In this document: one piece after another, positions 10,642-48,594 of the stretch
Numbering within the stretch: position 1 is the stretch's first letter
Layout of the letters: each line of letters begins with the position of its first letter
Source of the DNA: Pontiella desulfatans
GTDB lineage: Bacteria > Verrucomicrobiota > Kiritimatiellia > Kiritimatiellales > Pontiellaceae
Assembly: GCF_900890425.1 (NCBI RefSeq)
Contig: NZ_CAAHFG010000001.1
Span: forward strand, 3,348,001-3,412,000
Direction: 5' to 3'
DNA: 64,000 bases
Translations under genes and position numbers: made by a program
Notes under the pieces: generated by a model
Told to the model about the DNA's origin: nothing
Database searches by the model: none
Seen by the model: the letters and a program-made list of their open reading frames with translations, nothing else

Positions 10642-13482
10642 TTATTTATCGCCAGCCCTCACCTTGAGCTGGATGAACTTAACAGGATCATCGGCGATAT
10701 AGCGGTTCGTTACCGGCTCATAGCCGCCGACGGACGGGCCGACGAGGATTTGATCCTGCGTATTGGTCGAAGCCACCGAATCCACCAGATTCGTTGAATC
10801 AATCAGCAGGTAAGACAGTCCTTGGTTGGTATAATCCGCCCGGCGGCTGTGGACATACTCGAACCAGTTCGTTCCATCCTCGGATGCCACATTGATCCAA
10901 TCCATGGAGCCGGCATCGGAGTTGGTCGGGTCCATGCCCAGCGCATATTCGGCCAGGTTGTCGTAGCCGTCGCCGGCACCGCCGTTCTCGGCATCGGCGC
11001 CGGTCGATGCGTCGCCGCCGGCCAAGCCGTAGCCGGCAGCCCAGGCGGCAAAGCCGTCGTACGTGAAGTAGAGCGCCGATATCTCGGCTTCGGTGAGCGC
11101 GTAGTTGTAGACACGGACATCATCCAGTGCGCCCTCGTAATAATTGCCCCCAACCCCGCTGCCCAAACGGGCCTCGGCCATGACGCCGCCCATCCGCGTG
11201 ACCGTCCCGGTGTCGGAGAGCCACAACGACCCATTCAAATAGATGCTCATCCTGCCGGCATTCGCGTCCTTGGTAAAGGCCCAGTGATTCCATTGGCCCT
11301 CGTAGTCCGCGGCAGAGGCGGTCTTGGAGACGCGGTCATAGCCGCCGCTGTCGCCCGCATCCCAATATACCTTTGAATCGGACCAAGGCAGATGAATGTT
11401 CAACAGCCGGTTGCCGCCCGAATCCTCGGCGTAGAAGACGGAATCCTTGCGCGGTTGCGCAGCGGAATCGCCCTTGACCCACATCGCGATGGTGATGCCG
11501 CTACCCACCGTGCCGAATACATTGGCAGGCAGGACCACTGCATCGGAAGATGTGCTTCCATTAAACTCCAGCGCACCGGCGGCGCGGCCGTCCACCCAGG
11601 CGCCTCCCGACAATGCGCCGTCAAACCCGTGCCCCGATGCGTCGCCCACCACGGCGCCGCTGCCCTCATCCATTGGCCAGTAAGCCACCAGGCCGCGGCC
11701 TACAATCGTTATGGCGACCGTCTTCGTTTCAGAAACCAAGCCATTATACGTGATGAAGTAGGTGAAGCTGTCGCTCGCGGCGCCCGGGTTGGAGGTGTAG
11801 ACCAGGTCAGGCGCCGTTCCCGAAAGAACCCCGTTGGTGGGCTGGGTGTGGGTGTAGGCATAGCCCGTGCCGGATGGCAGCGTAATGACGGACGGAACCT
11901 CTTCGCCTGCGAACACCGCAAGGTCTTCGGCCGCCGGGGCGCTTCCATACAGCTCTTCAATCTCTTGAAGCGCCGCCTCGTTTTCCGCCGGCGTTCCGTC
12001 CGCGTAAAGTGCAAACGCACCGCCGGGAAACCGGTTGCGCCCGCCCAGTTTCGTCCAGTCAAACTGAAGAAGAGAGCCTGAAACAGTGGCTTCCGCATTC
12101 TCGTCGAGCGCCACGGCATGGACGGTGCCCGAAATGGGCATGGCCACCCGGACGCCCAGGGAGTCGTCATAGAGAGGGACCTGCCCGAGGCCGATGAGGC
12201 GGAAGAGCAGATGGTGTTCGTATTCATCGACCCGGAAATACATTTTCGCAACGCTCCGTTCATCTTCGACGACTTCGACAACGCCGTTTTCCCCGGTGGC
12301 ATCCATCATATCCCAGCTTACGATCTGGGTACCGTTAAAAATACGCAACTGGGCCTTGCCGGTTTCCGCGCTTAGGTGTTCAACGCCGCCGAGCAGCAGG
12401 CTGGCGATTGTCCCGTCGGCATTCCACACCATTGAATGGGCCGGGGGCGCATTCGTGGATTGGTTAATGGAAAAACCGTCCACGCGGCAGGGCTCGCCGC
12501 CATCTGCATAAGCCAGCACTTCGAGGGTCTGGCCGGGGGCGATGTGGATTTTCCGGGTCTGGTGCACGACGAGGTTTCCGGAAGCGGGGTCGGCGCTGCC
12601 GAGCCCACGGTTGGCGGACCAGGCATCGATCAAACCACCATCAAGAAAGAGTTTGTAGACCGCTTCGCCATCGTTCTCGTCAAAATATGCTGTTTGGATG
12701 TCGTAGACCCCGGCCCCGGAGAGCGCGAACGTCCCCGATGCCGTTCCGGCGCTTCCATTCAGTACAATCCCCTGCCCACCCGATGCGCCGGCCTGCGACT
12801 CGATGCTGAATCCGTCCAGCGTCATGGCTTCCGCCTCGATGCTGGAGGCCTCCAGTAGTTCTATCAAGCCGTGCCTGTAAACTCCCGCCCCCGTTGAGTT
12901 GCTGCCCAACTCGCCCCCGATCCGCTCCTCGATTTGCAGGTTGGCGGCATCATTGACCCCGAAGTCGAGCGTCAGGAAAAGGCTGTCCGTTTGGTTGGTT
13001 TCCGTGTCGGCGTAATAATTGAAATCAATTTCGACATACACCTCGCCGGTCGCGTCATCCTGGACCAGCCCGACCGAGTTGATACTGAAGAACTCGCCCC
13101 CCGTGTTGCATTTGCTGTAGAGCTTGATCGTGCCGGTGTAGGAGGTTCCGCCGTCAATAAACGAAATGCTTCCAGACTCGAAGGCATACTTGGAGTTGAC
13201 GTATTTAAAACCGGGGTCACCGGTTTCGTTGAAGATATAGTGGCTGCCCACCCCATCGATCGTAATGGTGTATTCGCCGTTCGACGCTTGTTCGGCGGGA
13301 CTGCCGCCCGAGATGACTTCACCGTCCACCACCGTTGCCACCTGCACGCCATCCGTGATCGGATTGTTCCCGGCCTGGTCGGACACCGGGGTGCTATTGC
13401 TGAAATCCTGATAGTAGATGGTTCCTGCCTGGCCCGTCGCAACCCCTGCAAGGAGGGCCAGAAATATACTGGTTGTTTTCAT
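10642..13482 (-). CDS. Secreted multidomain CBM/LamG protein, partner of the WRGEY hydrolase
   Basis: A 946-residue exported protein built from binding modules. A signal peptide (1-19) is followed by a beta domain (20-215), then a CBM6/35-like domain (215-345) recognisable from EAEAMTLDGFS, YFDENDGEA and ADGGEPCRVDGF. Next come the 'LVLNG' beta domain (347-520, here LLLGGVEHL), a cadherin-like domain (525-600), and a LamG domain (605-805) starting AYWPMDEGSG. The C-terminal module has GDGYDNLAEYALGMDPTN and ends VKFIQLKV. No catalytic motif was recognised, so a role in glycan binding or presentation is most likely. It begins 10 bases after the WRGEY hydrolase gene, with AAGGGGATCGA before the ATG. 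Relatives lie at 36283 and 43997. The LamG and C-terminal parts match those of 16023-19178. Confidence 0.8.
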   Translation of the reverse strand: MKTTSIFLALLAGVATGQAGTIYYQDFSNSTPVSDQAGNNPITDGVQVATVVDGEVISGGSPAEQASNGEYTITIDGVGSHYIFNETGDPGFKYVNSKYAFESGSISFIDGGTSYTGTIKLYSKCNTGGEFFSINSVGLVQDDATGEVYVEIDFNYYADTETNQTDSLFLTLDFGVNDAANLQIEERIGGELGSNSTGAGVYRHGLIELLEASSIEAEAMTLDGFSIESQAGASGGQGIVLNGSAGTASGTFALSGAGVYDIQTAYFDENDGEAVYKLFLDGGLIDAWSANRGLGSADPASGNLVVHQTRKIHIAPGQTLEVLAYADGGEPCRVDGFSINQSTNAPPAHSMVWNADGTIASLLLGGVEHLSAETGKAQLRIFNGTQIVSWDMMDATGENGVVEVVEDERSVAKMYFRVDEYEHHLLFRLIGLGQVPLYDDSLGVRVAMPISGTVHAVALDENAEATVSGSLLQFDWTKLGGRNRFPGGAFALYADGTPAENEAALQEIEELYGSAPAAEDLAVFAGEEVPSVITLPSGTGYAYTHTQPTNGVLSGTAPDLVYTSNPGAASDSFTYFITYNGLVSETKTVAITIVGRGLVAYWPMDEGSGAVVGDASGHGFDGALSGGAWVDGRAAGALEFNGSTSSDAVVLPANVFGTVGSGITIAMWVKGDSAAQPRKDSVFYAEDSGGNRLLNIHLPWSDSKVYWDAGDSGGYDRVSKTASAADYEGQWNHWAFTKDANAGRMSIYLNGSLWLSDTGTVTRMGGVMAEARLGSGVGGNYYEGALDDVRVYNYALTEAEISALYFTYDGFAAWAAGYGLAGGDASTGADAENGGAGDGYDNLAEYALGMDPTNSDAGSMDWINVASEDGTNWFEYVHSRRADYTNQGLSYLLIDSTNLVDSVASTNTQDQILVGPSVGGYEPVTNRYIADDPVKFIQLKVRAGDK

Positions 13483-13491
13483 TCGATCCCC

Positions 13492-15897: not shown

Positions 15898-16022
15898 CAC
15901 AGCTAACCCTTCATCTGCGGTGAACGGCGCCATTGCCAGAATGCCCGCAACCTTTTTAACATCATCATCCATCTGTACGGGAACCCTTGATCGGACGCCG
16001 GAAACCCAAATGTGCCATCCCC

Positions 16023-19178: not shown

Positions 19179-19203
19179 TTTGCATTTTCCACTTATACCA
19201 TTG

Positions 19204-19228
19204 CCCGGGGAGGCAAGGCCTCCCCGGG
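19204..19228. terminator. Strong intergenic hairpin between the surface protein and the hydrolase gene
   Basis: CCCGGGGAGGC and GCCTCCCCGGG form a perfect 11-pair stem around a three-base loop. It lies between the stop at 19259 and the ATG at 19178. There is no T-run on the coding strand after the stem, so it is not a classical intrinsic terminator. Partial termination or 3'-end protection of the first message is the likely role. Confidence 0.5.
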
Positions 19229-19258
19229 ATGGGTATGCAGGCTATCGAATATCCATAT

Positions 19259-23650: not shown

Positions 23651-23739
23651 GCTTCGTACACTCCTTTACCTCCCGGTTTCGAAACGGTTAGGCAACCACG
23701 TTGCCCGATCCGTCCGAAAATCCGGAAGTTTTAGTTGGA

Positions 23740-24198: not shown

Positions 24199-24209
24199 AA
24201 CTCAACCTT

Positions 24210-28068: not shown

Positions 28069-31000
28069 TTAAGGTCGATATGGCCCCAACTGCAGCTTAA
28101 GGCGCATGAAGCGTTCGTCTTTATCTGAAGGAACCGTGCCGGTCGTCATGCCCGACGCATCGGTGCTGAAGGCCACATCCGAGTTTGTCCACACACCGCC
28201 CACTAGATTGGTTGTAACCTCAACGTTGTATCCGACATCGGCCTGCAGCTCCCGGTACTGCGCTTCCAGCTCGCCCGATGTATTGAAAGACATCGGCATG
28301 AAGCCCTGGCCATCATACGTCAGCGGATTAAAGTCGAAGGCGTATTCCTCGAGCGCGCTCATGCCATCGCCATCCACATCCTCCGTCCAATCATTGGAAA
28401 GTCCATATTTCGACTGCCAACTCGAGGCCGGCACCATCCAGCGTAGGTTGGCAAAGAGACGCTCGGCTTCCGTCCAGTTGGATGCCGACAGGTTTTCCGT
28501 ACTGTCGTCAGGATTATACACGGTAAGGTTGCCCGACCTCAGAAACAGCCAGGATACGCGGGAGAAATCGCTAAGCGTTGCTTCGCCGGCCACGACCGGT
28601 CGGAACTCCGAAGGGTCAATCTTGATGGTTTCCCAATCCCCGGAACCGCTTACGCTCTTCAGTACGGCATAGGTTACCTCGGTGCCGTTGTCGATATCTT
28701 TGCGGCCGTTGGTCTCCAGGCCGATCAACAACGATTTGGGCGTATCGGATTTGATGTCCATGGCCAGTACGGCACCGGGATACCCTTTGTAGAAGGGATC
28801 TTTCGGTTTCAAGGTATACGCCTGCCATCCGGAACTGCTGCTCCAGCTCACCTGATACCAATCCTGATAATCCCGCGTAAAGTCATCCCACAAAATGGCC
28901 TTTCCGTCCGCGACGAACGACGAGCCTGCATCCATCAGTTCCTGCGCCGGGATCTGCTTGAGGTTGGAACTCAGGAGATAGTCACCCGTGTAAGGTGTCG
29001 AATCCCCACGGTTCACGATGGCGTAGGACGTATGGTCGTAGTCGTAGAAGACATTGGCGTAGGCGATCAGCGGCTGGCCCTGCACGATATTGCGGCAGGT
29101 GCCTTTCCATACGTTGGAACCGACGTTTTTCACATCCACCGCGGCGCGCCAGAAACGGGTGCGCGGCTGTTCATCCACCGTATAGAAAATCTCCACCTTG
29201 GTGATCGGCTTCGAAGTATCCGCCGTAACCGTGACCACCGGCCCTTCCGCCCCGGCTAAATCCACCGTAATTTCCGGCTGATCCGGGAGTGTATAATCCC
29301 CTTTCAAATGCTGGTTAAACCAGAACATCGCCGTAATTTCATTTGCCGGAATATTCCGATGGCTCATGTGCGGAGGAATCGAGAAGCGACGATCCGTTGA
29401 CGCCGGGATCAGGTTTTCCCAGTTATACATCAGGTTATCGCTCGGCGCGTTGAAGTCGTTCGCCGGCCCCCAATAGAGGATCGGCGTGGCAATGGTTGGC
29501 ATGGCCGCGCGGCACACCGCCAGCTTCGACAGGTCGGTGCGCCCCGGATCATTGTCATGAAAGCCGGGCAGGCCGATCGCATCGATTTCCGCCGGCGTGA
29601 ATTCCCCGGAACCGCCCACGCTCGGCGCGGCGGCCCACAGGCGGCCATCCACACCGGACAGGTAGGTGGTCTGCTCGCCGCCCATGGAATAGCCGGTGAC
29701 GGCCAGACGGATGCCGTCCGTCTCCGCCTGCCGCTGCAGGAAGGTCAGGCCGCGGCGGTTGGCGACACAGAGCAGGAACCAGTTGCTGTTGCGCGGCGAG
29801 GCCACGCGGTCGATGGTTTTATCGTCCGGCTCCACCGTGATAAAGGTGGACTGGTGGTAGACCTGCCGCGCATCAACCGAACCCCACTCCGTATTGGCCT
29901 CGCCCGGTGCGGCGCCTTCGAGGTCGTTGCCCAGCCAGTTCTGCGACAAGCAGGCATAGCCGTTGTTGGCTGCATAGCGCACTTCATTCAGCGTGGCGCG
30001 CCCGCCTCCGCCATGGATCTGCAGGATGGCCGGGGCATTCGTTGCGCCGGTCGGGAAACCATAAAACCCGGCCATCTTCGACACCTGTGTTCCGCCGAAG
30101 GGCGTGGTGAAGGTTCCAACGTCGTAGCGCACCGCACGCAGGGTAATGTCCCCTTCCGTCCACTCGCGCATGATCTCCACATTCAGCGGCTCAGCCGTTG
30201 GGTCATAGCCCGCCCAAGCTTCTTCAAATGAGTTGGGCGCCGTACCGCCTTCCATCACCGGAATCATGCTGGGCGTGACCATCGAAATTTTCCAGACCTT
30301 GGAAGACGTTCCCGTGAGCGTTGCATCGAGGTAGCTGATGATCTCCACCTCACCGAAGGTCTGGGTGGGCGCAAGGGCGGCATCGAACAACGTCAGCTCA
30401 TCGCCATTGCCGATATCATATTCCCGCAGGTCGATCAGCAGCTTGCTACCGGGCTGCGGAACAAGGCGGTCGTCCAGACTCATCGGCGTAATGCCAGCCC
30501 GATCCGCAACCACGTGAACCGTTGAATTGGATGCCGCATCAAGCCGGTAGGCGCTGAACGTGTTTGCGCTGCCGGAAATCTTCAGCACAGAACCGTCCGA
30601 CAACACCAGCCCGGAAACCAGATCCAACTCCGCGCCGTTTTCAATCTCAAGATCCGCCCCGTTGATAAACGACAGCGCGTGGTTGCCTGACGTTAACGCA
30701 TAATCGATACTGCCGCCATTCAGGGTTACGTCATCCCCCACATCCACCGCGTGATCGGCCGGAAGGAGAATCGTGTCGAGCATCGAAGGCACGCGGGCCA
30801 GATCCCAGCTGGAGGCGTTGTTCCACTGCCCGCCGTCCGAACCCGTCCATGTGATGGTTGCGGCGGGATGCGGAGACAAAATGGTCAGTTCAGCCGTATC
30901 GGACGAGGCGGAATCAAACGCCGCCGGATAGAGGGATTTCAACTGGCTGCCGGCATAGGTTCCTGCGTAGACTACCTGACCGTTAATCGTCGCGGTTTCA

Positions 31001-32268
31001 ACGGTCACATCCTGATCCAGTTTGACGAGGCCGCCTGCCAGAATCGTCAGGTCGCTTTCATTGCCGGTGAAGTCGGCATCAAAGTCCAGGTAGCCGGACT
31101 CATGCACCAGGAAGCTGCCGACGCCAAAGCCGCTACCTTTCAGATAGCCGCCCTGCACATCCCACAAACCGGCAAACGTGTTGCCGGGGTCGGTAAAGGT
31201 GAACCCGGTGTTCTTGAACGCATTTGCATCCCAGTCGCCGCCGACATAAATCTGGATCTTCTCGATCCCTGGCCCGGCACGCACCAACGAATCAATGGAG
31301 AGGTTCCGGTTCGCAGAAGAGGCATTGAAAAAGAGTGTGCCGTCGCCCGTCAGCGTCAACCCGCCGTCCAAAGCGGTTCCGCTGACCATGCCGATCGAAC
31401 ACCCGGCCGCCATGCGGAAATCGGCAACCGTGGCGGTTCCGCTGTGCTTGGCCATAAATGCGGCTCCATTCGTCAGAGTGAGCGATGCCCCGGCAAACAC
31501 GGGGTCGGCAAACTGCGGAGAGCGCGTCTGCATGCCAGGCGAGTCGTTGATGTAGGCCTTATCGATGGACGGTGCCAGTCCGTCCGACCAACTGGATGGC
31601 GTATCCCACCCCAGCGCGGTGGTCGCGCCGTGCGTTGTCGTTTGGGTAATGACCGGCGTCGGCTGTGGACTCTCGGTATTGCTGTTCAGCACAATATCGT
31701 CCAGTTGGTGGTGGCGGCCGGGGGAACCCGAGCCATCCGCCAGATAGAAGCGGAACTCGATGGTCTCCGAATTTTCCAATCCCTGGAAACCTGCGCCGGA
31801 AAGAGCAACCGTCTGATTGAATGTCTGCGGCGACGAATAGTCCGTGCCGGTATCCACGCCATCAAGCTGGGCAGCGGTGTTTGCAAATCCATCGACACTC
31901 GAATAGAGCCCCACGGCCATATTCAACGGACTCACAACGGTGTAGGTGTAGGTTAATGACGTGAGATCCAGCGTTTCGCCCGCCCCCAACCCGGTTACCG
32001 TGACGGTAAACGAGTGATACTGTGCCCCGGCTCCGGCGGGATTCACATCCCCGCTCTGCGTCGTGTCAGCTCCCGTGGCATCGGCCAAACCACCGCTGAT
32101 GGAACCGACCCCCACATTGAAGTCGGAAACCGTACTGTAGATCGAATAGTCGCTCGATGAAACCGAGTCCCCGTCAAAGGTAAACGTTGCAAACTCTTCC
32201 GCAGGTGCGGCCGCCGCCAGCAAACAAATTGAAAACACCGCTAGAACCTTCTTCATGATCCAACCCAT
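28069..32268 (-). CDS. Giant multidomain secreted carbohydrate esterase
   Basis: A 1399-residue exported protein. After the signal peptide comes a beta domain with FTFDGDS, YHSFTVTVTGL and GLYSSVDGF (25-195), an autotransporter-type unit (205-470), and a further beta-helix-like region (470-640). The alpha/beta hydrolase (about 690-1090) has IHGGGGRA and GYSMGGEQT with putative nucleophile Ser861, and SHRNIPANE as a likely His segment. A beta-sandwich (1140-1300) and a C-terminal module with DVDGDGMSALEEYAFDFNP ending RFMRLKL follow. The esterase core and the following sandwich match the smaller upstream neighbour at 32275. Start at 32268 has GGAA nine bases upstream; the ATG at 32256 is an equal candidate. 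Probably an acyl- or glucuronoyl-type esterase; the ester is unknown. Confidence 0.8.
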   Translation of the reverse strand: MGWIMKKVLAVFSICLLAAAAPAEEFATFTFDGDSVSSSDYSIYSTVSDFNVGVGSISGGLADATGADTTQSGDVNPAGAGAQYHSFTVTVTGLGAGETLDLTSLTYTYTVVSPLNMAVGLYSSVDGFANTAAQLDGVDTGTDYSSPQTFNQTVALSGAGFQGLENSETIEFRFYLADGSGSPGRHHQLDDIVLNSNTESPQPTPVITQTTTHGATTALGWDTPSSWSDGLAPSIDKAYINDSPGMQTRSPQFADPVFAGASLTLTNGAAFMAKHSGTATVADFRMAAGCSIGMVSGTALDGGLTLTGDGTLFFNASSANRNLSIDSLVRAGPGIEKIQIYVGGDWDANAFKNTGFTFTDPGNTFAGLWDVQGGYLKGSGFGVGSFLVHESGYLDFDADFTGNESDLTILAGGLVKLDQDVTVETATINGQVVYAGTYAGSQLKSLYPAAFDSASSDTAELTILSPHPAATITWTGSDGGQWNNASSWDLARVPSMLDTILLPADHAVDVGDDVTLNGGSIDYALTSGNHALSFINGADLEIENGAELDLVSGLVLSDGSVLKISGSANTFSAYRLDAASNSTVHVVADRAGITPMSLDDRLVPQPGSKLLIDLREYDIGNGDELTLFDAALAPTQTFGEVEIISYLDATLTGTSSKVWKISMVTPSMIPVMEGGTAPNSFEEAWAGYDPTAEPLNVEIMREWTEGDITLRAVRYDVGTFTTPFGGTQVSKMAGFYGFPTGATNAPAILQIHGGGGRATLNEVRYAANNGYACLSQNWLGNDLEGAAPGEANTEWGSVDARQVYHQSTFITVEPDDKTIDRVASPRNSNWFLLCVANRRGLTFLQRQAETDGIRLAVTGYSMGGEQTTYLSGVDGRLWAAAPSVGGSGEFTPAEIDAIGLPGFHDNDPGRTDLSKLAVCRAAMPTIATPILYWGPANDFNAPSDNLMYNWENLIPASTDRRFSIPPHMSHRNIPANEITAMFWFNQHLKGDYTLPDQPEITVDLAGAEGPVVTVTADTSKPITKVEIFYTVDEQPRTRFWRAAVDVKNVGSNVWKGTCRNIVQGQPLIAYANVFYDYDHTSYAIVNRGDSTPYTGDYLLSSNLKQIPAQELMDAGSSFVADGKAILWDDFTRDYQDWYQVSWSSSSGWQAYTLKPKDPFYKGYPGAVLAMDIKSDTPKSLLIGLETNGRKDIDNGTEVTYAVLKSVSGSGDWETIKIDPSEFRPVVAGEATLSDFSRVSWLFLRSGNLTVYNPDDSTENLSASNWTEAERLFANLRWMVPASSWQSKYGLSNDWTEDVDGDGMSALEEYAFDFNPLTYDGQGFMPMSFNTSGELEAQYRELQADVGYNVEVTTNLVGGVWTNSDVAFSTDASGMTTGTVPSDKDERFMRLKLQLGPYRP
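28386..28398. repeat. TCCAA-N3-TTGGA palindrome inside the esterase C-terminal module
   Basis: A 13-base palindrome with TCA centre, placed in the codons for NDW just before the DVDGDG loop. It resembles the TTCCAA-N3-TTGGAA elements at the same kind of site in 36283-38415 and 43997-46228, but the outer pair is not matched. Confidence 0.4.
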
Positions 32269-32274: not shown

Positions 32275-34173
32275 TTATTCCGGCTTCACCGCTTCATGAT
32301 CCTGCAAATGATCGGCGTCATCGCTGTTCGTGACCGACCTGGCCGACATTGCGTTTTCACTGCGATACGCATGCACATGCTGGACATACTCGCCGCCCAC
32401 CCAACGGAAGTTGCGGAAAATGACGTCCGGATCCTGCCACTTTTTATTTTTCGGGGAAAGTTCAAGCCCGCCGGCTTCATGGATGGCATCCCCCAGCGGT
32501 TTGTCCGTTTTCTCATTCAGGAATTGATCGGGCGACAACGTTACGGTCTGCCATCCGGAATCCCCTTCCAGTTTAACGCGGCAGGCATAGGTATTAAAAT
32601 CGGCCGTCCAGTAGTTCCGGTGCAGTTTGACTGAAAAATCCTCGCCGGCTTCGGTCTTGATATCAAACTGCAGCGCCGCGCCTTTCGGGGCACGGAATTC
32701 AGGATCACTCGGTGCATAGGTGAAGGGGCTCACGCGGTTGGCCGTGAAACCGGGCTTTCCGCCAGGCCCCGTAACCGCCTTGAGCCGCTTATCTATTTTT
32801 CCCGGGATCGGGTCAGTTCCGGTCGAATTTCGCGTCCAGCTGTCGACGCCTTCCTGGCCATCACAGAAAACCCGCGAGGGGGTTTTGATGGTCGCCACGG
32901 CTCCGATCTTTTCAGGAATCACGGCCTGCAGCGGGCTGGAAACAACGACGCCCGATTGATAGGTGATATTCGCAAAGGCAAACAGGTATTCATCCGCGTT
33001 CATGACCGGCGTTGCGGCCACATAGACATCGCCTGATTTCCGGAGCTCCGCATTCCGCCAGTGCCGGTTCACCGCAAAGGGATTTTCAAGCCCGTAATAA
33101 ACCTCGACCTTCACCACGTCTTCAGGCCGATCCGGTTTCAGGTAAAACAGCGGCGATTGATCCTTGCCCGGCCTGATCTGACAGTCCGGATTCGCCGGCC
33201 AAACCCCTTCGCCTTTCAGATGCACATCCATCCACATGGGCAGGTCATGTATAAAATCCATCCCGATGTGATGCCGCAGGCGCGGCGTCAGCGCCCAGGC
33301 CCGCGGCACCCCTTCCGGAATCAGATCCAGCGACTGCTCGGCACGATCCATATAGCCGTGGCGATCGTTGGAGGAGCTTAAGAACAGCATGGGAAACTTC
33401 ACATAAGGAGCCGATGCTTCCGGTGCCAGTGAAGCGCGCCAACGCCGGTCGTTTTCACTGGGTTTGTGCTCCGGCATGCCGATGGAATATCTCGTGTCAT
33501 CATACGTGTAGGTGTTCCACCCCGCGCCATAAATGGCACATCCCGCCTTGATGCGCGGATCAAAAGCCAGGTTCCACATGATGGTTCCCCCCATGGAAAT
33601 GCCGTATGCCCCGAGCTTATCCGGATTCACTTCCGGTTGACGCTCGAGATAGGTCAAGGCCCGCATCGAAGCCTGCGTCCACAGAAAATAGGCATCATGT
33701 CTCGGGCTCGGCTCCGTTACTTTTGTGCCTGTTCGCTTTTTATGATCCCCATTCTCGACCCCGTTCCAGCGGGTGTAGCGCTCCCGTTTGGGCCACTCGC
33801 CGCCCCAGTTGATCGTCAGGATCCCGTATCCGCGCCCGGCAAACACCTTGAGCCAGTCCTTGTTCACCGTCTGGCCGCCGCCGTGGATATGGAGCAGGCC
33901 CGGCAAATCCTTGCCGCCGGTCGGCGCGGCATAGATGCCATAGATCCGGACATATTCTCCATCGAATTTTTCGCCGTTAAAATAGACCTCCTTGTAGGAG
34001 ATGCCGTCTTCTTCCCAAGCCTTCAGAATTTCTTCGGCCAGCGGCTCCGCTCTCGGATCATACCCTGCCCAGATGTCCGGCGGTGTCATAACCGCAGCAG
34101 ATGCTCCTGCACCAAATGAAAAAGCCACCATCCCCGAGAGGATCCCCATCAAAATAAACGTCTTTTTTTTCAT
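32275..34173 (-). CDS. Secreted alpha/beta-hydrolase carbohydrate esterase with C-terminal sandwich domain
   Basis: A 632-residue esterase-type protein. The signal peptide is about 1-26. An N-terminal segment (DIWAGYDPRAEPL) is also found in the 28069 protein as AWAGYDPTAEPL. The hydrolase fold has HIHGGGQTV, TINWGGEW and GISMGGTIMWN with putative nucleophile Ser193; LRHHIGMDF supplies a late histidine. A C-terminal beta-sandwich (about residues 490-600) shares DIKTE and VIFRNFRWVGGE with the neighbour. It lies seven bases from the next gene, so the two are cotranscribed. Upstream is a terminator-like hairpin only 20 bases before its start, so expression probably depends on read-through. Acetyl-xylan- or glucuronoyl-esterase-like activity is possible but not decided. 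Confidence 0.82.
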   Translation of the reverse strand: MKKKTFILMGILSGMVAFSFGAGASAAVMTPPDIWAGYDPRAEPLAEEILKAWEEDGISYKEVYFNGEKFDGEYVRIYGIYAAPTGGKDLPGLLHIHGGGQTVNKDWLKVFAGRGYGILTINWGGEWPKRERYTRWNGVENGDHKKRTGTKVTEPSPRHDAYFLWTQASMRALTYLERQPEVNPDKLGAYGISMGGTIMWNLAFDPRIKAGCAIYGAGWNTYTYDDTRYSIGMPEHKPSENDRRWRASLAPEASAPYVKFPMLFLSSSNDRHGYMDRAEQSLDLIPEGVPRAWALTPRLRHHIGMDFIHDLPMWMDVHLKGEGVWPANPDCQIRPGKDQSPLFYLKPDRPEDVVKVEVYYGLENPFAVNRHWRNAELRKSGDVYVAATPVMNADEYLFAFANITYQSGVVVSSPLQAVIPEKIGAVATIKTPSRVFCDGQEGVDSWTRNSTGTDPIPGKIDKRLKAVTGPGGKPGFTANRVSPFTYAPSDPEFRAPKGAALQFDIKTEAGEDFSVKLHRNYWTADFNTYACRVKLEGDSGWQTVTLSPDQFLNEKTDKPLGDAIHEAGGLELSPKNKKWQDPDVIFRNFRWVGGEYVQHVHAYRSENAMSARSVTNSDDADHLQDHEAVKPE

Positions 34174-34192
34174 TTCACATCCCGACTACACC

Positions 34193-35177: not shown

Positions 35178-35222
35178 GGCCCGCGCTTTGAGTCGCACGA
35201 TGCTGCGCCCTTCCCGATCCGA

Positions 35223-36293
35223 TTATTTCTTGGATTTGTCCCGAGTGCCGATCGGCTTCCAGACAATGGACGAGGTCTTCTTTTCGAGGTCGATATCGAC
35301 GGTGCAGAACTCAAACTCGCGGTGGTAGGCATAGCCTTTTTTGGAGGCCTTGCCCAACGGCCTACCGATCCTCTTGCCGAAATCATCGTGCCACGTCATC
35401 AGCGACTCCTGGCTCCAGAGATGCTGCCCCTCATCCACCCAGCGGTAGTAGGCCTTGTCGTGCGCGACAATGAGATAGGCCGCGTGGCTGAATTCGTGGG
35501 TCTTGCTCCATCCGTCATGGGCCGAAAAACAGACGAACATCTTGTCCTCCGGAACCTGCAGGCAGGTGTCGATCATGGTTTCGCCGGCGGTGACACTGTC
35601 GCAGGTATGACGGAACCAGCTATCGATAAACACCCCGTCCACATTATCCAGCATCCCGATTCCGTCATACATGCCGTCGCGAGCCCGGTTCAAGATGAAC
35701 CCATTGATCAACCTGAAGCCGGTCATTTTTGACGTAATGTAGGATACATTGGGCTTATGCTTCCGCACAGCCGTGCGCCAGCCATCGATAAAGATGCCGT
35801 GAAGATCGCTTTCGGCGCAGTTGCGGTTAGCGGTCTCCACATACCAGTCGTTTTCCGCTCTGAGGGGAAGGTTCAGGTGAGTCGGCGCGCCGCGGTCATC
35901 GCAAATGAAATATTCCGGATGCTCCACAAACGCCTTGGCCTCGGACTCGAACCACTTTGGATAGGCCGCCCCAATGCTATAGATCATGATCGGCTTGCAA
36001 CGCGGATTGTTTTTTACCAATCGCGCCGCAGTCAGATGGCTGGTTTTTTCATGGGACGGATCCGGATAAACGGAACGCATGTGCGGCTTTTCGATGGTGA
36101 AATATTCAAAGTTGCCGCGAATCCATGCATATTGCTCCTCCGAAAAACCATCCCCGCTGTACGAATGGCCGTAAAGGCGCGTCTTGTGCCATTCACCGGC
36201 ATAGCAGGGTTCGGACTGGGCAGCAGATGCCTTGAATATCGAAAGCACAACAATGCCTGCAAAAAGGCAACACTGGTTCAGATTACTTTTCAA
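35223..36293 (-). CDS. Secreted GHL15-like putative glycoside hydrolase
   Basis: A 356-residue protein with signal peptide (about 1-25) and a single barrel-like domain. YFTIEKPHMRSVYP, ESDLHGIFIDGWR, DGVFIDSWFRHTCD and IVAHDKAYYRWVDEG suggest a GHL15-like hydrolase with acidic residues at strand ends. It matches the first 325 residues of the protein at 16023-19178. The start codon is TTG at 36293 with GGAG eight bases upstream, lying inside the last codons of the preceding gene (11-base overlap), so translation is coupled. It is the last gene of the seven-gene run from 48594. Activity and substrate are unknown. Confidence 0.78.
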   Translation of the reverse strand: MKSNLNQCCLFAGIVVLSIFKASAAQSEPCYAGEWHKTRLYGHSYSGDGFSEEQYAWIRGNFEYFTIEKPHMRSVYPDPSHEKTSHLTAARLVKNNPRCKPIMIYSIGAAYPKWFESEAKAFVEHPEYFICDDRGAPTHLNLPLRAENDWYVETANRNCAESDLHGIFIDGWRTAVRKHKPNVSYITSKMTGFRLINGFILNRARDGMYDGIGMLDNVDGVFIDSWFRHTCDSVTAGETMIDTCLQVPEDKMFVCFSAHDGWSKTHEFSHAAYLIVAHDKAYYRWVDEGQHLWSQESLMTWHDDFGKRIGRPLGKASKKGYAYHREFEFCTVDIDLEKKTSSIVWKPIGTRDKSKK

Positions 36294-38415: not shown

Positions 38416-38431
38416 CGTATCCCCCTTATGC

Positions 38432-41590: not shown

Positions 41591-41603
41591 GCATTTCCCC
41601 TGC

Positions 41604-42449
41604 TTATTTTTCAAATCCGATTTCCAATTTCAGGAATTCATTGGTCTTGCCGACTGTTGAAACGCTGTTGGTGCCCAAAACCGGAGGCACCAGACCGTCG
41701 GTCGGGACAACTTCGCAAAGTTGAATCGCCTCATGGGCAAGGCGCTCGCCGAACAGCCGGTAGCCTTCAACAGTATAGTGCAGGCTATTATGAACTTTTC
41801 TGCCCGCCTTATTGATCCCGTCATTCAAATCATCGGTATTAACCCAGGTCGCGCGAGGATGCGCCTCGACGACCTCGACCAATGCATCGCGCACCATCGT
41901 CCAATGCGGATACTTCTCGTTCGCCATGTCATAGTCACTCAGACGTCCCACAACCACATTGATATCCTCACGCCCCAAATCGTCGGAAAGTTGCTGAAAC
42001 AACCCTACCAAACTCTCCGCATAGACTTCGCCATGGCTCTCTTTGGCATCCCGCTCGCCCTGCATCCAGACGAAGGTAACCGTTGAGAACTCCTTCTCTC
42101 GGGTCGCCTCTTCAACCTTTGCCAACAACCGGTCATACAGGTCTCCCGGCACCTTCCCGCCGCTGTAGAGTGGATAGCCCGTTTGTTCGGGATCATACCC
42201 ATCGACCGCCTTCCACTGCTTATACCAACGGCGAATCGGCTGGCCGCCCAGCGAATCCTTCACAACCGTTACGTTTTCTTTACCAAACGCGGCTTCTACC
42301 GTGGGGACGAACGAAATATTTTCATCAAGATAATACATATTCGACTGGCCCGACAGGATGAAGAGATGCTTCCCCTTTTCAGCCGCATGCGCCACCCCGC
42401 AAACCAGGGCAACCAAGCTTGCAATATATAGCTTCTTTTTCATTCTCAT
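41604..42449 (-). CDS. SGNH (sialate O-acetylesterase-like) esterase with short C-terminal tag
   Basis: A 281-residue secreted esterase. Signal peptide about 1-22; FILSGQSNMYY gives the putative nucleophile Ser36, and WMQGERD and VNTDDLNDG are shared with the protein at 7560-9092. That relative continues into an alpha/beta hydrolase domain; here the SGNH domain is followed by a short linker and the tail TNEFLKLEIGFEK, nearly the same as the tails of the proteins at 36283 and 43997. This looks like replacement of the second domain by a C-terminal tag through recombination. It lies 26 bases after a PhoD gene, an arrangement repeated at 9152/7560. Confidence 0.86.
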   Translation of the reverse strand: MRMKKKLYIASLVALVCGVAHAAEKGKHLFILSGQSNMYYLDENISFVPTVEAAFGKENVTVVKDSLGGQPIRRWYKQWKAVDGYDPEQTGYPLYSGGKVPGDLYDRLLAKVEEATREKEFSTVTFVWMQGERDAKESHGEVYAESLVGLFQQLSDDLGREDINVVVGRLSDYDMANEKYPHWTMVRDALVEVVEAHPRATWVNTDDLNDGINKAGRKVHNSLHYTVEGYRLFGERLAHEAIQLCEVVPTDGLVPPVLGTNSVSTVGKTNEFLKLEIGFEK

Positions 42450-42475
42450 TCCATTTCTTCGATTTTAACGGACGG

Positions 42476-43936
42476 CTAGTTCTGGATCGTTATCGTTTCC
42501 AGCTCCTGCCCGTTTTCGTTAATCAATCGGAAAACCGCCTGATCTGCGGTGAACGTAATTTCACCGAACGCCCACGACCGGCTTTTCAACCCAAACAACT
42601 GGGCCGTCCGATCTTCCCCGAAGGCACCCGGCCCCGGAACGCCGCCGAGCGTCGCGACCTCGAACTCATAGATCTTTTTGCCCTCGGGACGCGGAATGGC
42701 GAAGCCGCGCGCGCCGTGGCGATCGCCGCACAGCAGAATCACCTTGGAGCCTTGCTTCGCGTCGATCAGCTGGAAAATTTCTTCGCGCCCCTCCGTATCC
42801 CACGTCCCCCAACTGTCTTTGCCGTTGGAGATATAGTCGCTCCACATCGTGCCGCCGCTGAGCAAAATATAGGGAGAGGTCGATTCTTTGATCTGCTGTT
42901 TCAGCCAGGCCATCTGTTCCTCGCCCAAAAACGAATTGAGCTGGCCGCGTTCTTCATTCACCCGGCAGGAGCGCGTATCGAGCGCAATAACGTGCACCGG
43001 CCCGACTTGGGTCTGGAAATAGATGCCCTTGCGTTCCACATTCCGATCCGGATTGTTCCATTGGGTTTTCCAGTTTTTCCGCAACCCGTCCACATCGATC
43101 GCCTGGCCCCGGGTGGACGTTCCGCCCGAATCGTCGTGCCAATAATCATGGTCGTCCCACGCCGCATAAACCGGGACATTCGCCGTCAGCTGCTGCCACG
43201 ACGGGGAAAGATTGCGAAGCTGGTAGTCGGCGTTGATCAATCCAAAATCGTTCTTGCGATCATCCACCGCACAGTCGCCGAGCACCAGCATCGCGCGGTT
43301 GCCTCGCTCCTGAATCAAGTTCATCAGCTCCGGCCGGTATAGCCCGACTTTATGGAAGCACGTCCCGAAGGCGATTTTAAAGGGCTTTTCAGACAGCGTT
43401 GCCGGAGCGGTAACGAAGCGTCCCCCGCCGAGGTTTTTACCTTTCGAATTGGTCACCTGATACGTGTATGCCGTATCGGAAGAAAGACCTTCACAACGAA
43501 CGATCAGAATGCGTTCCGGTTTACCGGACGCAAACGTTTTGGAGGCTCCGCTTTGCGGGGTCACCTTAACCTCGACCGAGTCCGGCATCGGCAGATGCAC
43601 CCAGACCGCGACGGATGTCGGCGTCAGGTCGCCCAGCATCGGGCCGCCGAGTTTCGAATGCCCGAAAAGACGGCAGACCCCCGCCAGCGCATCCTCCGGC
43701 TTCGATCCTGTCAAAGCCGTCCGGCAGGCCGTATAGAAATCCTGCACCGCCTGCGGTTGCGTCTCGTATTGGTTCATGATCTTCAGATCAATCTCCAGCG
43801 TCCCCTTGTGCGCATCCTTCAGCGAGACCGGTGCCGGCTCTGAGGGATTGCCGCCACGCGCGGCCAACGCCCCGCCAACGGTCGTGGCGGCCAAAACGAG
43901 AAACTGTTGCCTCTTAAGGCGGGAATATTCATTCAT
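42476..43936 (-). CDS. PhoD-like metallophosphoesterase
   Basis: A 486-residue PhoD-family protein with FGTCFHK, VLGDCAVDD, WDDHDYWHDD, LDTRSC and CGDRHGARGF. It is closest to the protein at 9152-10630. The N-terminus LKRQQFLVLAATTVGG resembles a Tat signal but has KR followed by QQ, where the relative has KRRQ, so twin arginine is lost. The ATG at 43936 was chosen because AGGA lies eight bases upstream; the frame is open for 60 bases further. Metal motifs are otherwise complete. It is the third gene of a four-gene order (WRGEY hydrolase, CBM protein, PhoD, SGNH) repeated elsewhere in the window. Confidence 0.86.
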   Translation of the reverse strand: MNEYSRLKRQQFLVLAATTVGGALAARGGNPSEPAPVSLKDAHKGTLEIDLKIMNQYETQPQAVQDFYTACRTALTGSKPEDALAGVCRLFGHSKLGGPMLGDLTPTSVAVWVHLPMPDSVEVKVTPQSGASKTFASGKPERILIVRCEGLSSDTAYTYQVTNSKGKNLGGGRFVTAPATLSEKPFKIAFGTCFHKVGLYRPELMNLIQERGNRAMLVLGDCAVDDRKNDFGLINADYQLRNLSPSWQQLTANVPVYAAWDDHDYWHDDSGGTSTRGQAIDVDGLRKNWKTQWNNPDRNVERKGIYFQTQVGPVHVIALDTRSCRVNEERGQLNSFLGEEQMAWLKQQIKESTSPYILLSGGTMWSDYISNGKDSWGTWDTEGREEIFQLIDAKQGSKVILLCGDRHGARGFAIPRPEGKKIYEFEVATLGGVPGPGAFGEDRTAQLFGLKSRSWAFGEITFTADQAVFRLINENGQELETITIQN

Positions 43937-43996
43937 GATACGTCCTGATGTTGGTTTTCGTTGCTTCATTGAGTTGGGCGTTAAGAGTACACCCAT

Positions 43997-46228
43997 CTAC
44001 TTTTCAAATGCGATTTCCAGTTTCAGGAATTCATTGGTTTTCCCGATGGTCGATACGCGGTTGGTGACGCTCTCGAAGTCGGCATCGATGATTCCGGAAC
44101 CGGCATTGGAAACTCCATTGGTGCTCCAAATGCCATCCACCAACTTATCAGAAGCCTTAACCATGTAGCTCAACCCGCGCGCTGCGGCATCGCGGCGGCG
44201 GTTGTATTGGATTTCAAAACCATCCCCGGCCATACCGTGCGTGGGCTCCGCCTCGTTGTTTCCAAAGTTTGGAATGCCGCCGAGGGCATATTCGGTCAGG
44301 TTGTTGAGGCCGTCGCCGTCCGGGTCGGCGAAGAGGTCGGCATCGGTTCCAACGATTGGAAAACCGTCGATCCAGGCATAGTAGTCGTCGAGGTTGCCGT
44401 TTGCGGTGTGCACGGCTTCGATTTCAGCCAGCGCGGCGGCCGCGTCGTCGGAGGCATAGAGGGCGATCTGCCCGCCCGCCATCAGCCCGCGGCTGGAAAG
44501 ATAGGGCCAGTCGATCTCGAGCACGCCGCCGGAATCATCCACCGTCACATTCGTATCCATCAGCTGGTAACCGAAGGCCGCGGTGTAGGGAATCTCCATG
44601 CGGATGTTGAGCGAGGGGTCGTTTTGCGGGATGCCGTCGAACCCGGCCAGGCGGATCATCAGGTGATGTGCGTAGGCATCGATCCGGAAATAGAAACGGG
44701 CATAGTCGAGTTCGGCCTCGTTGAGGATCAGCAGCGATCCTTCCTGCTCGCCGGACTTCTGTTCGAGGGTGTCGATGGAATAGCCATCGAACACGCGCAG
44801 GATCACCCACGAATCTTCGAGGGTGTCGATGTGCTCGCTGCCGTTCAGTACCAGACTGGCAATCGAGCCGACGGCATTCCAAGCCATGGCGGTTCCGGAA
44901 GGAACGTCCGCAGTCTGGAGGTCGTATCCGTCGATGCGGCAAGGTTCCCCACCGTCCGCAATCCCGGCAATTTCCAGTTCGTCGCCGCTGCGCAGGTAGA
45001 CATTTTTCACGGTGCGCTCGACGCGGGTCAGGTCGATCGCCTCGGAGCTGCCGAGGGTGCGGTCGGCCAGCCAGGCATCGACCAGCTGGTCGTTGAGATA
45101 AATCTTGAAAACGGCTTCGCCGTCGGTTTCATCGAAGTAGGCCACGTTGAGGTCGTAGTAGCCGGAGGTCAACCCGACCAGCGTCTCCGACACGGAGCCT
45201 CGGGTTCCGTCGAGCCGCACCAGCATGCCGCCGGAAGCCGCGCTGTTGGTTTCGATGGAATAGCCATCGAGCGCCATGGCCTCGGCTTCGGATAAAAACT
45301 GCTCCACCAGGGTGAAGGTCATTTCATCGACGCGGCCATATTCCGCTCCCCCCCGGATTGCGGTCAGCTCAACCATCGAGTTTGTCTGCATTTCGACCGC
45401 CGCAGTACGATGGCTGGTCAAGGACGAGAGGTCTACGCCAGCGGTACCGAACATGCCGTCCGCGAGCCAGGAATCAACCAGAACACCATCAATCCGGAGC
45501 TCATAGGTGCCCACGCCGTCGGTTTCATCGAAATATGCCGTATCGATATAGTATTCGCCGGCATCCCCCGTAAATACCTGGGTGGCCGTTCCGGTTGCGC
45601 CCAATCCGCCAGCCACCTGGATGTAGTGGCTGTTGGCGGCAATGTCATTACTGACCACGCTGTACGCCGAGAGCGCCATATGTTCGGCCTGATAATTGAA
45701 GGTGGTTACCTTCGAAATGAAGAGATAATCGACATCCAGTTCGGCCGTCTCCTCGGAATCGCGCAGCTCGATGGCATTGATTCCTTCGGTCACGGTTGCA
45801 ACAACATTGGTTTCGATCCACGACTTCGACGTCGTAGAGATCACGCCGACCTTTGCATCGTTGACGTAGACGCCCATCGACCGCTCGCCGCTGGGCACTT
45901 TAATGCTGAACGCCAGTTCCTTTTCGCCGGCAAGCAGATCGATATTCCAGGTCAGGTTAAAGCCGCCATTGCCGTCCACATAGGAACCCCCGGATGCATT
46001 GGCATCGGCCTTGATGCCGCCGGAGGCGATGACGGAATCTTCCGCCTCGAAAAGGCCGCCCGGAACGGACGCTTCCACCGAAGCGGCAAACAGCATCGCC
46101 GCGGAAACCAGTACCGCGCCCAACTTGCTTGGCACGCTACGTAGCGCGGATATCCGATCCGCGTACTCTGCGTTCGGAAACTCGCATCGGACATGCGAGC
46201 TACTCTTTGCATTCGTGCTAATCATCAT
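43997..46228 (-). CDS. Secreted triple CBM-like protein, partner of the WRGEY hydrolase
   Basis: A 743-residue exported protein. A long basic leader (residues 1-35) precedes the hydrophobic signal core (LGAVLVSAAMLFAAS). Then follow a CBM-like sandwich (54-155), two CBM6/35-like domains (160-310 and 313-440; YFDETDGVGTYEL and YFDETDGEAVFKIYL), the LVLNG domain (445-600; LVLNGSEHID, YFRIDAYAHH), and the C-terminal module with DPDGDGLNNLTEYALGG ending FLKLEIAFEK. No catalytic motif. AAGGG lies before the ATG pair at 46228/46225. A palindromic repeat (46135-46199) forms part of the leader-peptide codons. It begins 11 bases after the 46240 hydrolase gene. Confidence 0.8.
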   Translation of the reverse strand: MMISTNAKSSSHVRCEFPNAEYADRISALRSVPSKLGAVLVSAAMLFAASVEASVPGGLFEAEDSVIASGGIKADANASGGSYVDGNGGFNLTWNIDLLAGEKELAFSIKVPSGERSMGVYVNDAKVGVISTTSKSWIETNVVATVTEGINAIELRDSEETAELDVDYLFISKVTTFNYQAEHMALSAYSVVSNDIAANSHYIQVAGGLGATGTATQVFTGDAGEYYIDTAYFDETDGVGTYELRIDGVLVDSWLADGMFGTAGVDLSSLTSHRTAAVEMQTNSMVELTAIRGGAEYGRVDEMTFTLVEQFLSEAEAMALDGYSIETNSAASGGMLVRLDGTRGSVSETLVGLTSGYYDLNVAYFDETDGEAVFKIYLNDQLVDAWLADRTLGSSEAIDLTRVERTVKNVYLRSGDELEIAGIADGGEPCRIDGYDLQTADVPSGTAMAWNAVGSIASLVLNGSEHIDTLEDSWVILRVFDGYSIDTLEQKSGEQEGSLLILNEAELDYARFYFRIDAYAHHLMIRLAGFDGIPQNDPSLNIRMEIPYTAAFGYQLMDTNVTVDDSGGVLEIDWPYLSSRGLMAGGQIALYASDDAAAALAEIEAVHTANGNLDDYYAWIDGFPIVGTDADLFADPDGDGLNNLTEYALGGIPNFGNNEAEPTHGMAGDGFEIQYNRRRDAAARGLSYMVKASDKLVDGIWSTNGVSNAGSGIIDADFESVTNRVSTIGKTNEFLKLEIAFEK
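44260..44361. repeat. Two TTCCAA-N3-TTGGAA palindromes within the coding sequence
   Basis: Copies at 44260-44274 (centre AGT) and 44347-44361 (centre CGA), at the same linker sites as in the paralogue at 36327-36644. The different centres show that they are not simply a recent exact copy of one DNA segment. Confidence 0.7.
46135..46199. repeat. REP-like composite palindrome inside the signal-peptide codons
   Basis: Three inverted repeats lie side by side: CGCTACGTAGCG (46135-46146, perfect 12-base palindrome), GCGGAT/ATCCGC (46146-46162) and CTCGCAT/ATGCGAG (46181-46199, five-base loop). Read on the minus strand they encode roughly residues 10-32 of the 43997-46228 protein. The layout of neighbouring small hairpins resembles REP/BIME elements. 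A single copy was found in this window. Confidence 0.7.
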
Positions 46229-46239
46229 AAACCCTTGGC

Positions 46240-48594
46240 CTAAAGATTGTCGTTCGTTTTGAGCACATAGACATCGCCGAGCACAATGAACTGCGTCTCT
46301 ATTGTTGGAGATGAGCTGCTGTTGACCGTCACGGTATTCGAACCGCCGGAGACCGAAAAGGCGGCATTGACCACCGGCAGATCGCTGATCAGATTCCAGT
46401 TGTTGTCATAAAGCCGGGCTGTTGAGCCGCCGTAATATTCCAGATACTGCCCCGGAGCCACCGTGCCCGTGACGGACAGGCTGCCGCCACTGCCGAGCGA
46501 AATGGTCGGGTTGACAAGCGACACCGACCCCTCGTGATCGACACGGATCACAAAATTAAGCCCCTGGGAGGCGTTCGGATTATTCAGGGTCAGCGAGTCG
46601 CCGGCCGCGATGATCTGCTTGCGGGGCCGGGAACCTTTTTCCTGTTCGATCGTAAACGGAGCGTCCGTTCCGTCCGAGCGCCCCATCACATGATGCGGCG
46701 TCCAGATATATTGGGCGAGGGTATTGGTGCCGAGCACCAGCACATCCTCGGTTTCGTTATGATTGCTCCCAGGGGTTCGGGGCGTAACAGCCGCAACATA
46801 GGCGACATCGTCGTCGTGCAACACGGGCGCCAGCTTGATCCAGTCGCCGAACAGACTGTTCATTTCATCGAACTGGCCGTGTCCGGTCATGTCGGCAACC
46901 GTAATGCCCCGCCCGCTCATCGGCACCGAAAAGAAGGCGCGGCGCCCGTTCACCATGATGCTTTCCTGCACATGGAAATGGGTGTCCAGCCGGCTTGTCG
47001 CCAAATACGCGCTATGGGCTTCATCCCGCCGAATGTCGATGTTCAGCGCAAAGTAGCTCAGCGAAAGGTCGTCGCGGATGCCGCTGAAATCCTGCTCAAA
47101 GTTGGCTGCGATGCTTCGGCCGACTCGCGAGGACGAGGCCGGAACCGTCATTTGGCTGTAGTAGAAGTCGAACAGATCCCGCACCGCCCATGGATAGACC
47201 CCATGGATCTCCGGCCCGTCAAAATGCATATGACCCAGTTCAAGGTTGTTTGCAAACCGGGTATATTCCAGCACCATCTCTTCCATCAGGCTGTTGGTCT
47301 GCCCCAGGTCATATTCCGGAATGTAGTTCTGGCCATAGGAGCAGTACAGCCCAGCGACTTCAGATCCGGCGGTATGTGAAAACGCATCCGTTCCTTCAAA
47401 ACCGCGCGAGCAATTTTCGAGCACCCAGACCTCCTCTTCCGTTCGGCTAACCCGCCCAACTCTGACAATCTCTTCGCCTATCCGGAAATAGTTATGGTAA
47501 CAAACCGAATGAACATGGGCGATTGAGTTGCCAAGCAAAGGCGGCTTCGTTGCCGCATCCGGACGGAACAGCAGGCGGGTTTCCGACGTGCCGACCGACT
47601 CTTCCAGCGTCCCCCCGCCCCAGCTCGCCAACCGCCGGTCGACGGTACCGACAACATAGTCGGGATCATGTTTTCCGATTCCGAAACTCACCATGTGCAA
47701 CCGCAGCTTCACGCCCTGATCCGCCAGATAATCAGCATAGGCTTTCAGATCGCTCTCGCCGTTGGGGAAGACATTCGTATTTACATGGGTCTGCCCGTTA
47801 TACTTCGGCCAATATTCCCCGCGCCAGGTTTGGCAATGCAGATAAACCCGTTTGGCCTTGTTCGGAAAAACAATGGCATCGGTCAGGGCATACAGTTCCG
47901 CCTCCGAGGAGGCCTCCAGGATCACCTCGTTGAGATCCACGATATTCGTCCGGTAGTGCTCCACCCAGTTGAGTACATCGGCTTCCGTCCACGTGGCCTG
48001 CCCGGCGGGATGCGGCAAATCCTCGTTCGCCCAGACCGATGCCAGGCAGGCATCCAGCGCCGCGCCGTCGAGCGCGCCGTCGTAGAGCGCCACACCGCCG
48101 CGTTTGCCGTCGTTGGTCTGCCCCCACAGATAGTGCCAGCGGTTATAGACCGTCTGGGTTCCGGTCGAATAAATCACATCATCCAGGTCCTTGAAACCAA
48201 GCGTATCCTGCACCCGCAGCTTTAAATAGACGCCATAAGCCTGGAGATCGTCATCCGCAATCCCCTCCACATCGATCAGGTGGATGGAAAGGTGCCGGGC
48301 ATATTCATCGATCCGGAACGTAAACCGCGGCAGACCGCCCGACTCCGAAACCGCAACCGTATCACCCGCAGTCACCGCATGACCGAGCTGGGTATCAATA
48401 CGATCCTCGCCATCGAAATAAACCATGTGGAAGCCGTCTGAAGAGAGCGGCAGGAGCAGGCTGGCATCGTTGAGCACCAGCGAAGTCGGCTTGCCCGAAG
48501 CATTGAACGTCAACTCCGATGCCCCCAGGCAGGACAAGGCCATCAATCCTGTGAGAATCAGCAGTTGAATGGTGAAAGTTTTTCTCGAACGCAC
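46240..48594 (-). CDS. WRGEY-family putative glycoside hydrolase
   Basis: A 784-residue exported protein. A signal peptide (about 1-24) precedes the beta domain (LVLNDASLLLP, TFRIDEYARH), then the barrel-like region with KRVYLHCQTWRGEYWPKY, VFPNGESDLKAY, LGHMHFDGPE and SSRVGRSIAANFEQ, and a C-terminal beta part ending YVLKTNDNL. The conserved HFDG-type aspartate is a candidate catalytic residue by analogy with barrel glycosidases; this is inference. The start is GTG at 48594 with AGAGG upstream. It is the first gene of a seven-gene run behind a conserved-box promoter, and is followed after 11 bases by its CBM partner. Confidence 0.78.
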   Translation of the reverse strand: MRSRKTFTIQLLILTGLMALSCLGASELTFNASGKPTSLVLNDASLLLPLSSDGFHMVYFDGEDRIDTQLGHAVTAGDTVAVSESGGLPRFTFRIDEYARHLSIHLIDVEGIADDDLQAYGVYLKLRVQDTLGFKDLDDVIYSTGTQTVYNRWHYLWGQTNDGKRGGVALYDGALDGAALDACLASVWANEDLPHPAGQATWTEADVLNWVEHYRTNIVDLNEVILEASSEAELYALTDAIVFPNKAKRVYLHCQTWRGEYWPKYNGQTHVNTNVFPNGESDLKAYADYLADQGVKLRLHMVSFGIGKHDPDYVVGTVDRRLASWGGGTLEESVGTSETRLLFRPDAATKPPLLGNSIAHVHSVCYHNYFRIGEEIVRVGRVSRTEEEVWVLENCSRGFEGTDAFSHTAGSEVAGLYCSYGQNYIPEYDLGQTNSLMEEMVLEYTRFANNLELGHMHFDGPEIHGVYPWAVRDLFDFYYSQMTVPASSSRVGRSIAANFEQDFSGIRDDLSLSYFALNIDIRRDEAHSAYLATSRLDTHFHVQESIMVNGRRAFFSVPMSGRGITVADMTGHGQFDEMNSLFGDWIKLAPVLHDDDVAYVAAVTPRTPGSNHNETEDVLVLGTNTLAQYIWTPHHVMGRSDGTDAPFTIEQEKGSRPRKQIIAAGDSLTLNNPNASQGLNFVIRVDHEGSVSLVNPTISLGSGGSLSVTGTVAPGQYLEYYGGSTARLYDNNWNLISDLPVVNAAFSVSGGSNTVTVNSSSSPTIETQFIVLGDVYVLKTNDNL

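Follow-up and report, generated by a model that had tools for sequence, protein, structure and literature searches.

A candidate glycoside hydrolase family and its putative non-catalytic partner, encoded as three gene pairs in Pontiella desulfatans

In the genome of Pontiella desulfatans, a marine seabed bacterium, a gene for a putative glycoside hydrolase is followed by a gene for a protein with a CBM, and this arrangement occurs three times within a 64-kb stretch of DNA. It raises the question of what kind of enzyme the hydrolase is and what role its partner plays. The window, as we call the whole 64-kb stretch that was analysed (C1:3348001-3412000), has a GC content of 57.5% and lies in a genome of 8,658,305 bases in 6 contigs, whose nearest named relatives are Pontiellaceae bacteria B1224, B12219 and B12227. 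For P. desulfatans F1 a genome of 8.66 Mb has been described, with a GC content of 56.0% for the species (PMC10880615).

Three gene pairs in one catabolic locus

A sequence-only reading had proposed a two-gene system present in triplicate and in the same order, and all six open reading frames are indeed found, all on the minus strand (Table 1). The gaps of 9-16 bases given for the pairs hold for pair 1 (9 bases) and pair 3 (11 bases). For pair 2 the value depends on the start codon chosen, being –14 with the first ATG and 16 with the in-frame ATG at MKTNLY. The three hydrolases are 44-51% identical in pairwise comparison and each contains the motifs WRGEY, VFPNG, HxDG and SSRVGxSxAANFEQ, while YFDExDG and ADGGE occur in all three partners, as had been read from the sequence. 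The motifs proposed for the beta domain were right in part: FR(I/V/M)D is present in all six proteins, but LVLNG is not literal everywhere, with LLLGG in P0002 and LVLGG in P0001. That this domain is common to hydrolases and partners is borne out by an HMM of the hydrolase N-domain, which matches the window partners with E-values of 3e-14 to 4e-18. Two further homologues of the hydrolase, distant and unpaired, are encoded on contig C5 of the same genome. Residues 8-35 of P0006 (partner 3), which precede its signal peptide, recur at C1:390712 and C1:418779 with 60-64% identity and are possibly a repeat element or the result of a wrong start codon.

Table 1 Features of the hydrolase/partner locus, in window coordinates
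Feature	Position	Strand	Domains, motifs or setting
Third PhoD-like gene of the window (DUF7800)	6085-7563		
PhoD-like metallophosphoesterase with DUF7800	9152..10630	-	Directly after partner 1
Partner 1, 946 aa	10642..13482	-	CBM35-like module; N-domain copy, residues 351-508; Big-like region; LamG, 645-802; C-terminal domain, 809-946
Hydrolase 1, 826 aa	13492..15972	-	Signal peptide; N-terminal beta domain, residues 49-217; barrel with WRGEY, VFPNG, HHDG, AANFEQ
GHL15-like putative glycoside hydrolase	35223..36293	-	After partner 2
Partner 2, 720 aa	36283..38445	-	Beta-repeat region; CBM35-like module; N-domain copy, residues 425-578; C-terminal domain, 589-720
Hydrolase 2, 1060 aa	38432..41614	-	Extra N-terminal beta-repeat region, common to partner 2; N-domain, residues 297-464; barrel
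SASA-type carbohydrate esterase	41604..42449	-	Between PhoD and hydrolase 2
PhoD-like metallophosphoesterase with DUF7800	42476..43996	-	Directly after partner 3
Partner 3 (P0006), 743 aa	43997..46228	-	Two CBM-like modules, the second at residues 307-443; N-domain copy, 448-598; C-terminal domain, 611-743 (window 43997-44398)
Hydrolase 3 (P0005), 784 aa	46240..48594	-	Beta-sandwich; barrel; C-terminal beta
Divergent beta-repeat protein	48877-51630		Beside hydrolase 3
Sensor histidine kinase	51740-53773		Beside hydrolase 3

The three pairs sit in one catabolic locus, which also encodes sulfatases, PhoD-like phosphatases, SASA esterases, GHL15-like genes, GH29, GH95, an FGGY sugar kinase, an SDR and an IclR regulator. 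The beta-repeat protein and the sensor histidine kinase next to hydrolase 3 also have paired hydrolases as neighbours in three other genomes (G001, G008 and G016), and it is possible that they form a glycan-sensing regulator of the pairs. Elsewhere in the window, we rejected the idea that 28069-32268 and 32275-34173 are one split gene. These adjacent genes are paralogous to each other in their esterase-like regions (26% over 617 aa). The relatives of 28069-32268 in G001 and G016, proteins of about 2130 aa, match it at both ends.

The hydrolase: fold and candidate catalytic residues

The barrel could not be placed in a known GH family from the sequence, and profile searches lead to the same result, with no Pfam match above the cut-off and no NCBIfam match. 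A search of the PDB with a profile of 35 hydrolase sequences found no sequence relative, a literature search found no description of the family, and the plasmid records searched contain no homologue. The wider superfamily has no Pfam family either. With no sequence counterpart in Pfam, NCBIfam or the PDB as searched, the hydrolases would form an undescribed family, a candidate for a new family though one of known kind. Several profiles came close enough to be considered. Rcc01698_C is matched in 18 of the 35 members with E-values down to 8e-6, and in P0005 with an E-value of 5e-4; it does not place the hydrolase, because the match covers the insert hairpin only and is below the cut-off in P0005. 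The hairpin itself (hydrolase 3 residues 366-410, IGEEI...RGxxxT...HxAG), a structural element common to these members, is similar to Rcc01698_C of phage tail-like proteins. Pfam matches to Melibiase, Dockerin, CBM_11 and the like are found in one or two members each and are not family-wide. Damaged copies of the hydrolase are present in G001 (L066:11234-12126 and L065:8195-9106), one in several frames and one truncated just past the start of the barrel.

The AlphaFold model of hydrolase 3 (mean pLDDT 90.5, pTM 0.88) predicts a beta-sandwich (residues 26-190), a (beta/alpha)8 barrel (about 205-615) and a C-terminal beta part (617-778), with an insert in the barrel (324-420) between beta3 and beta4. 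The best Foldseek matches of this model are to GH101, GH36 and GH31, with E-values of 1e-8 to 1e-6 and a TM-score of about 0.3. VIA gives a Z-score of about 11 both against GH13 barrels and against GH36 over both domains, at 7-13% identity. GH36, GH31, GH101 and GH13 are retaining alpha-acting families. Since the nearest folds belong to such families, we infer that the hydrolase is a retaining alpha-glycosidase. D459 ends the strand 455-459 (beta4) and is conserved in all 35 homologues, and E500, which follows beta5, is conserved in 33 of them; the other invariant residues are W202, W257, E375 and R397, plus D730 in the C-terminal part. On the model, D459 is the candidate nucleophile and E500 the candidate acid/base of a retaining alpha-glycosidase.

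With GH36 and GH31 (clan GH-D) the hydrolase, as modelled, may share the order of an N-terminal beta-sandwich and a (beta/alpha)8 barrel, and its conserved Asp at the end of beta4 may correspond to the nucleophile of the clan. Against GH36, VIA gives Z-scores of 10-11 and an rmsd of 5.4-6.9 over 330-430 residues, and GH13 reaches a similar Z-score over the barrel alone. Weak profile matches also fall on the hydrolase motif FPxG...GxxLxLH, which presumably resembles the beta3 motif of clan GH-D. The hydrolase differs from GH36 and GH31 in sequence, with an identity of at most 13%, and in its roughly 100-residue insert between beta3 and beta4. The Melibiase profile PF02065 gave no significant match, with a best E-value of 0.0035 in 2 of the 35 members and no match in P0005. 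In addition, the second conserved carboxylate follows beta5 and not beta6 as in GH36, and between residues 505 and 620 there is no D or E conserved at ≥88% that would correspond to the GH-D-type Asp acid/base on beta6. GH101 endo-alpha-N-acetylgalactosaminidase is among the top Foldseek matches (E-value 1e-8), and its catalytic Asp and Glu, which we take to be D764 and E796, lie about 30 residues apart, a spacing comparable to the 41 residues between D459 and E500. However, the TM-score is about 0.3 and the identity 8-10%, no GH101 chain appeared in the PDB profile search (E-values up to 10), and there is no Pfam match. The PDB profile search with the hydrolase family likewise matched no chain of the known fucanase families GH107, GH168, GH174, GH187 and GH141. 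Known fucanase families are not among the fold matches listed, which carries no weight against kinship.

The partner protein, its pairing and its origin

The partner has no barrel. In all ten partner proteins the core consists of a CBM and a domain matched by the hydrolase N-domain HMM (E-values 3e-13 to 3e-21); the parts outside the core are variable and include LamG, beta repeats and Big domains. The model of partner 3 is poor (pLDDT 53.5), and the fold comparison was therefore confined to its CBM; that the fold matches listed include none for the N-domain copy carries no weight in either direction. Residues 307-443 of P0006 superpose on 2w47 (CBM35; VIA) with a Z-score of 14.2 and an rmsd of 2.4 over 125 residues, CBM36 and CBM6 being about equal, and are thus predicted to adopt the CBM35 beta-sandwich fold. 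Pfam CBM_35 matches two of the ten partners (best E-value 1.3e-7). Unlike CBM35, CBM36 and CBM6 as such, the partner module is fused to a copy of the N-domain of a glycosidase-like protein and has its own dedicated gene. The surface glycan-binding proteins of Bacteroidota PULs are non-catalytic binders encoded beside a glycan-degrading enzyme. The partner resembles them in that the gene of a presumably non-catalytic binder lies next to that of a putative enzyme, but differs in deriving partly from the enzyme itself.

Every one of the ten partners ends in a C-terminal domain that is found in no paired hydrolase. Its sequence, DPDGDGLNNLxEYALGG...FLRLxI, belongs to no Pfam family. A search of the genome with P0006 gave 111 matches, most of them to this domain, at about 100 places, and in the copies examined the domain lies 0-16 residues from the stop codon. 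Its host proteins carry CBM96, Calx-beta, Big and a weak match to a carrageenase middle domain, so that it has the appearance of a tail on large secreted proteins and is a candidate sorting or anchoring tail. The SASA esterase encoded between the PhoD-like gene of pair 3 and hydrolase 2 ends in 22 residues that match the extreme terminus of the partner C-terminal domain with 73% identity, the rest of that domain being absent; this looks like a remnant or a product of recombination.

The expectation that pairing is kept in other genomes holds. Searches for the partner core covered 58 related genomes and 388 from across the phylum, about 440 in all since the sets overlap, and all ten full cores found adjoin a hydrolase, with one of the ten pairs split by contig ends (L064/L049/L067). 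One pair lies outside the genus (G229, L098:14705-19501), and its genes overlap by 29 bases. The hydrolase family itself ranges over Kiritimatiellota, Verrucomicrobiota, Lentisphaerota and Planctomycetota, and is absent from one genome of the same genus (7.4 Mb, 5 contigs; presumed P. sulfatireligans F21). The barrel tree contains an 11-member clade (support 100/100) in which nine hydrolases are paired. Of the two unpaired members, L098:7786-10536 has a partner-like CBM fused C-terminally and L056 has no partner; since these two are sisters (100/100), loss of the partner is the simplest reading. Hydrolase and partner distances are correlated (r 0.745; 3 of 20000 permutations as high), so that the three paralogue types co-segregate, although this would also be expected from operon inheritance alone. 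Taken as adjacency of all cores and pairing of most of the clade, the genomic data give good support to the earlier proposal that the two proteins act together.

The origin of the partner can be followed in its second core domain. In the midpoint-rooted N-domain tree, the partner copies form one clade (100/100), and the N-domains of the paired hydrolases are its sister group (99/97). Judged by these relationships, the partner is partly self-derived, a duplicated copy of the hydrolase's own N-domain having been joined to a CBM. Five unpaired relatives (L123, L124, L126, L130 and L131) have a second N-domain in the same chain, and these tandem domains group apart from the partner copies. This implies at least two duplications of the N-domain, one that placed the copy in a gene of its own and one or more inside the hydrolase chain. 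By their domain content, some unpaired relatives combine within a single chain the elements that elsewhere come from the partner in trans. Alongside the CBM fusion, the duplications suggest that the enzyme benefits from a second N-domain and a CBM, whether in cis or in trans.

Proposed function, substrate and alternatives

We propose a secreted two-protein glycan-cleaving system, in which a retaining alpha-glycosidase is held by a non-catalytic glycan-binding partner and the substrate is probably an alpha-L-fucose glycan; the chances that this proposal is right as a whole appear to us about even. In the most likely reading, the partner attaches to the glycan and tethers the enzyme to it or to the cell. 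Its CBM would grip the same glycan as the enzyme, its N-domain copy would grip the hydrolase, providing a docking or an additional substrate-binding surface, and its C-terminal tail would retain both proteins on the cell surface. For cleavage of an alpha linkage, the hydrolase would use D459 as the nucleophile and E500 as the acid/base, and the three paralogous pairs may serve three linkages or decoration states.

The least certain part of the proposal is the substrate, for which a decorated algal glycan containing alpha-L-fucose is probable but weakly indicated. GH29, GH95 and sulfatases in the locus suggest a fucose-containing sulfated glycan, and GH29 is also found near the distant hydrolase homologues. 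As GH29 is common throughout the genome (55 copies), its co-location is weak evidence for the substrate. Strain F1 grows on four fucoidans, and F21 uses the same four (PMC7356697). The presumed F21 genome is without the hydrolase family, yet F21 grows on these fucoidans, which weakens the case for fucoidan. A phosphodiester- or phosphate-decorated glycan, with the PhoD-like enzymes as real third partners, is unlikely but a live rival to a sulfated fucan, because the PhoD-like genes are much more specific to the window. Three of the five PhoD matches of the 8.66-Mb genome are located there, two directly after a pair, and a PhoD homologue follows the partner in G016 and G008 too, whereas GH29 is spread genome-wide. 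On the other hand, no PhoD gene lies directly beside pair 2 or the pairs in G001, G008a and G016b, sulfatases, GH29 and GH95 are present in the locus, and enzymes with the PhoD fold might have sulfate or other esters as substrates. The PhoD-like proteins of the window are possibly a phosphatase or an unusual sulfatase of the system.

The manner in which the two proteins cooperate can also be read differently. The CBM35-like core, the common C-terminal domain and the other locus genes, which look aimed at the same glycan, would all suit an independent binder of the surface glycan-binding type that serves the whole locus without contacting the hydrolase, the pair being kept by co-transcription alone. 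This is a substantial possibility, though short of likely, as the partner carries the hydrolase's N-domain and not an unrelated binding domain, always adjoins a hydrolase in the genomes that were searched, and has its equivalent domains in cis in some unpaired hydrolases. A further reading is an obligate two-subunit glycosidase, in which the N-domain-derived second subunit would complete or position the active site in trans and the tandem N-domain would have met the same need independently elsewhere; we regard this as rather unlikely. Finally, fold similarity alone does not show function, and members of the wider superfamily in this phylum have the barrel and an Asp of the HxDG type in common with the hydrolases but no conserved E500, so the protein might be a transglycosidase, a lyase or an inactive glycan binder instead of a hydrolase. 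We find this quite improbable given the invariance of D459, the strong conservation around WRGEY and HxDG across phyla, and nearest folds that are those of retaining alpha-glycosidases and transglycosidases.

The hydrolases are a candidate glycoside hydrolase family of four phyla for which the searched profile libraries and PDB have no entry. There is demand for enzymes acting on sulfated algal glycans, a store of marine carbon that is poorly degraded. The catalytic part is of a known kind and the unusual part is the mode of pairing, which shows a route by which part of an enzyme may give rise to its accessory subunit. The paired paralogues, together with their unpaired, CBM-fused and tandem-domain relatives, offer a natural series on a trans-acting binding subunit.
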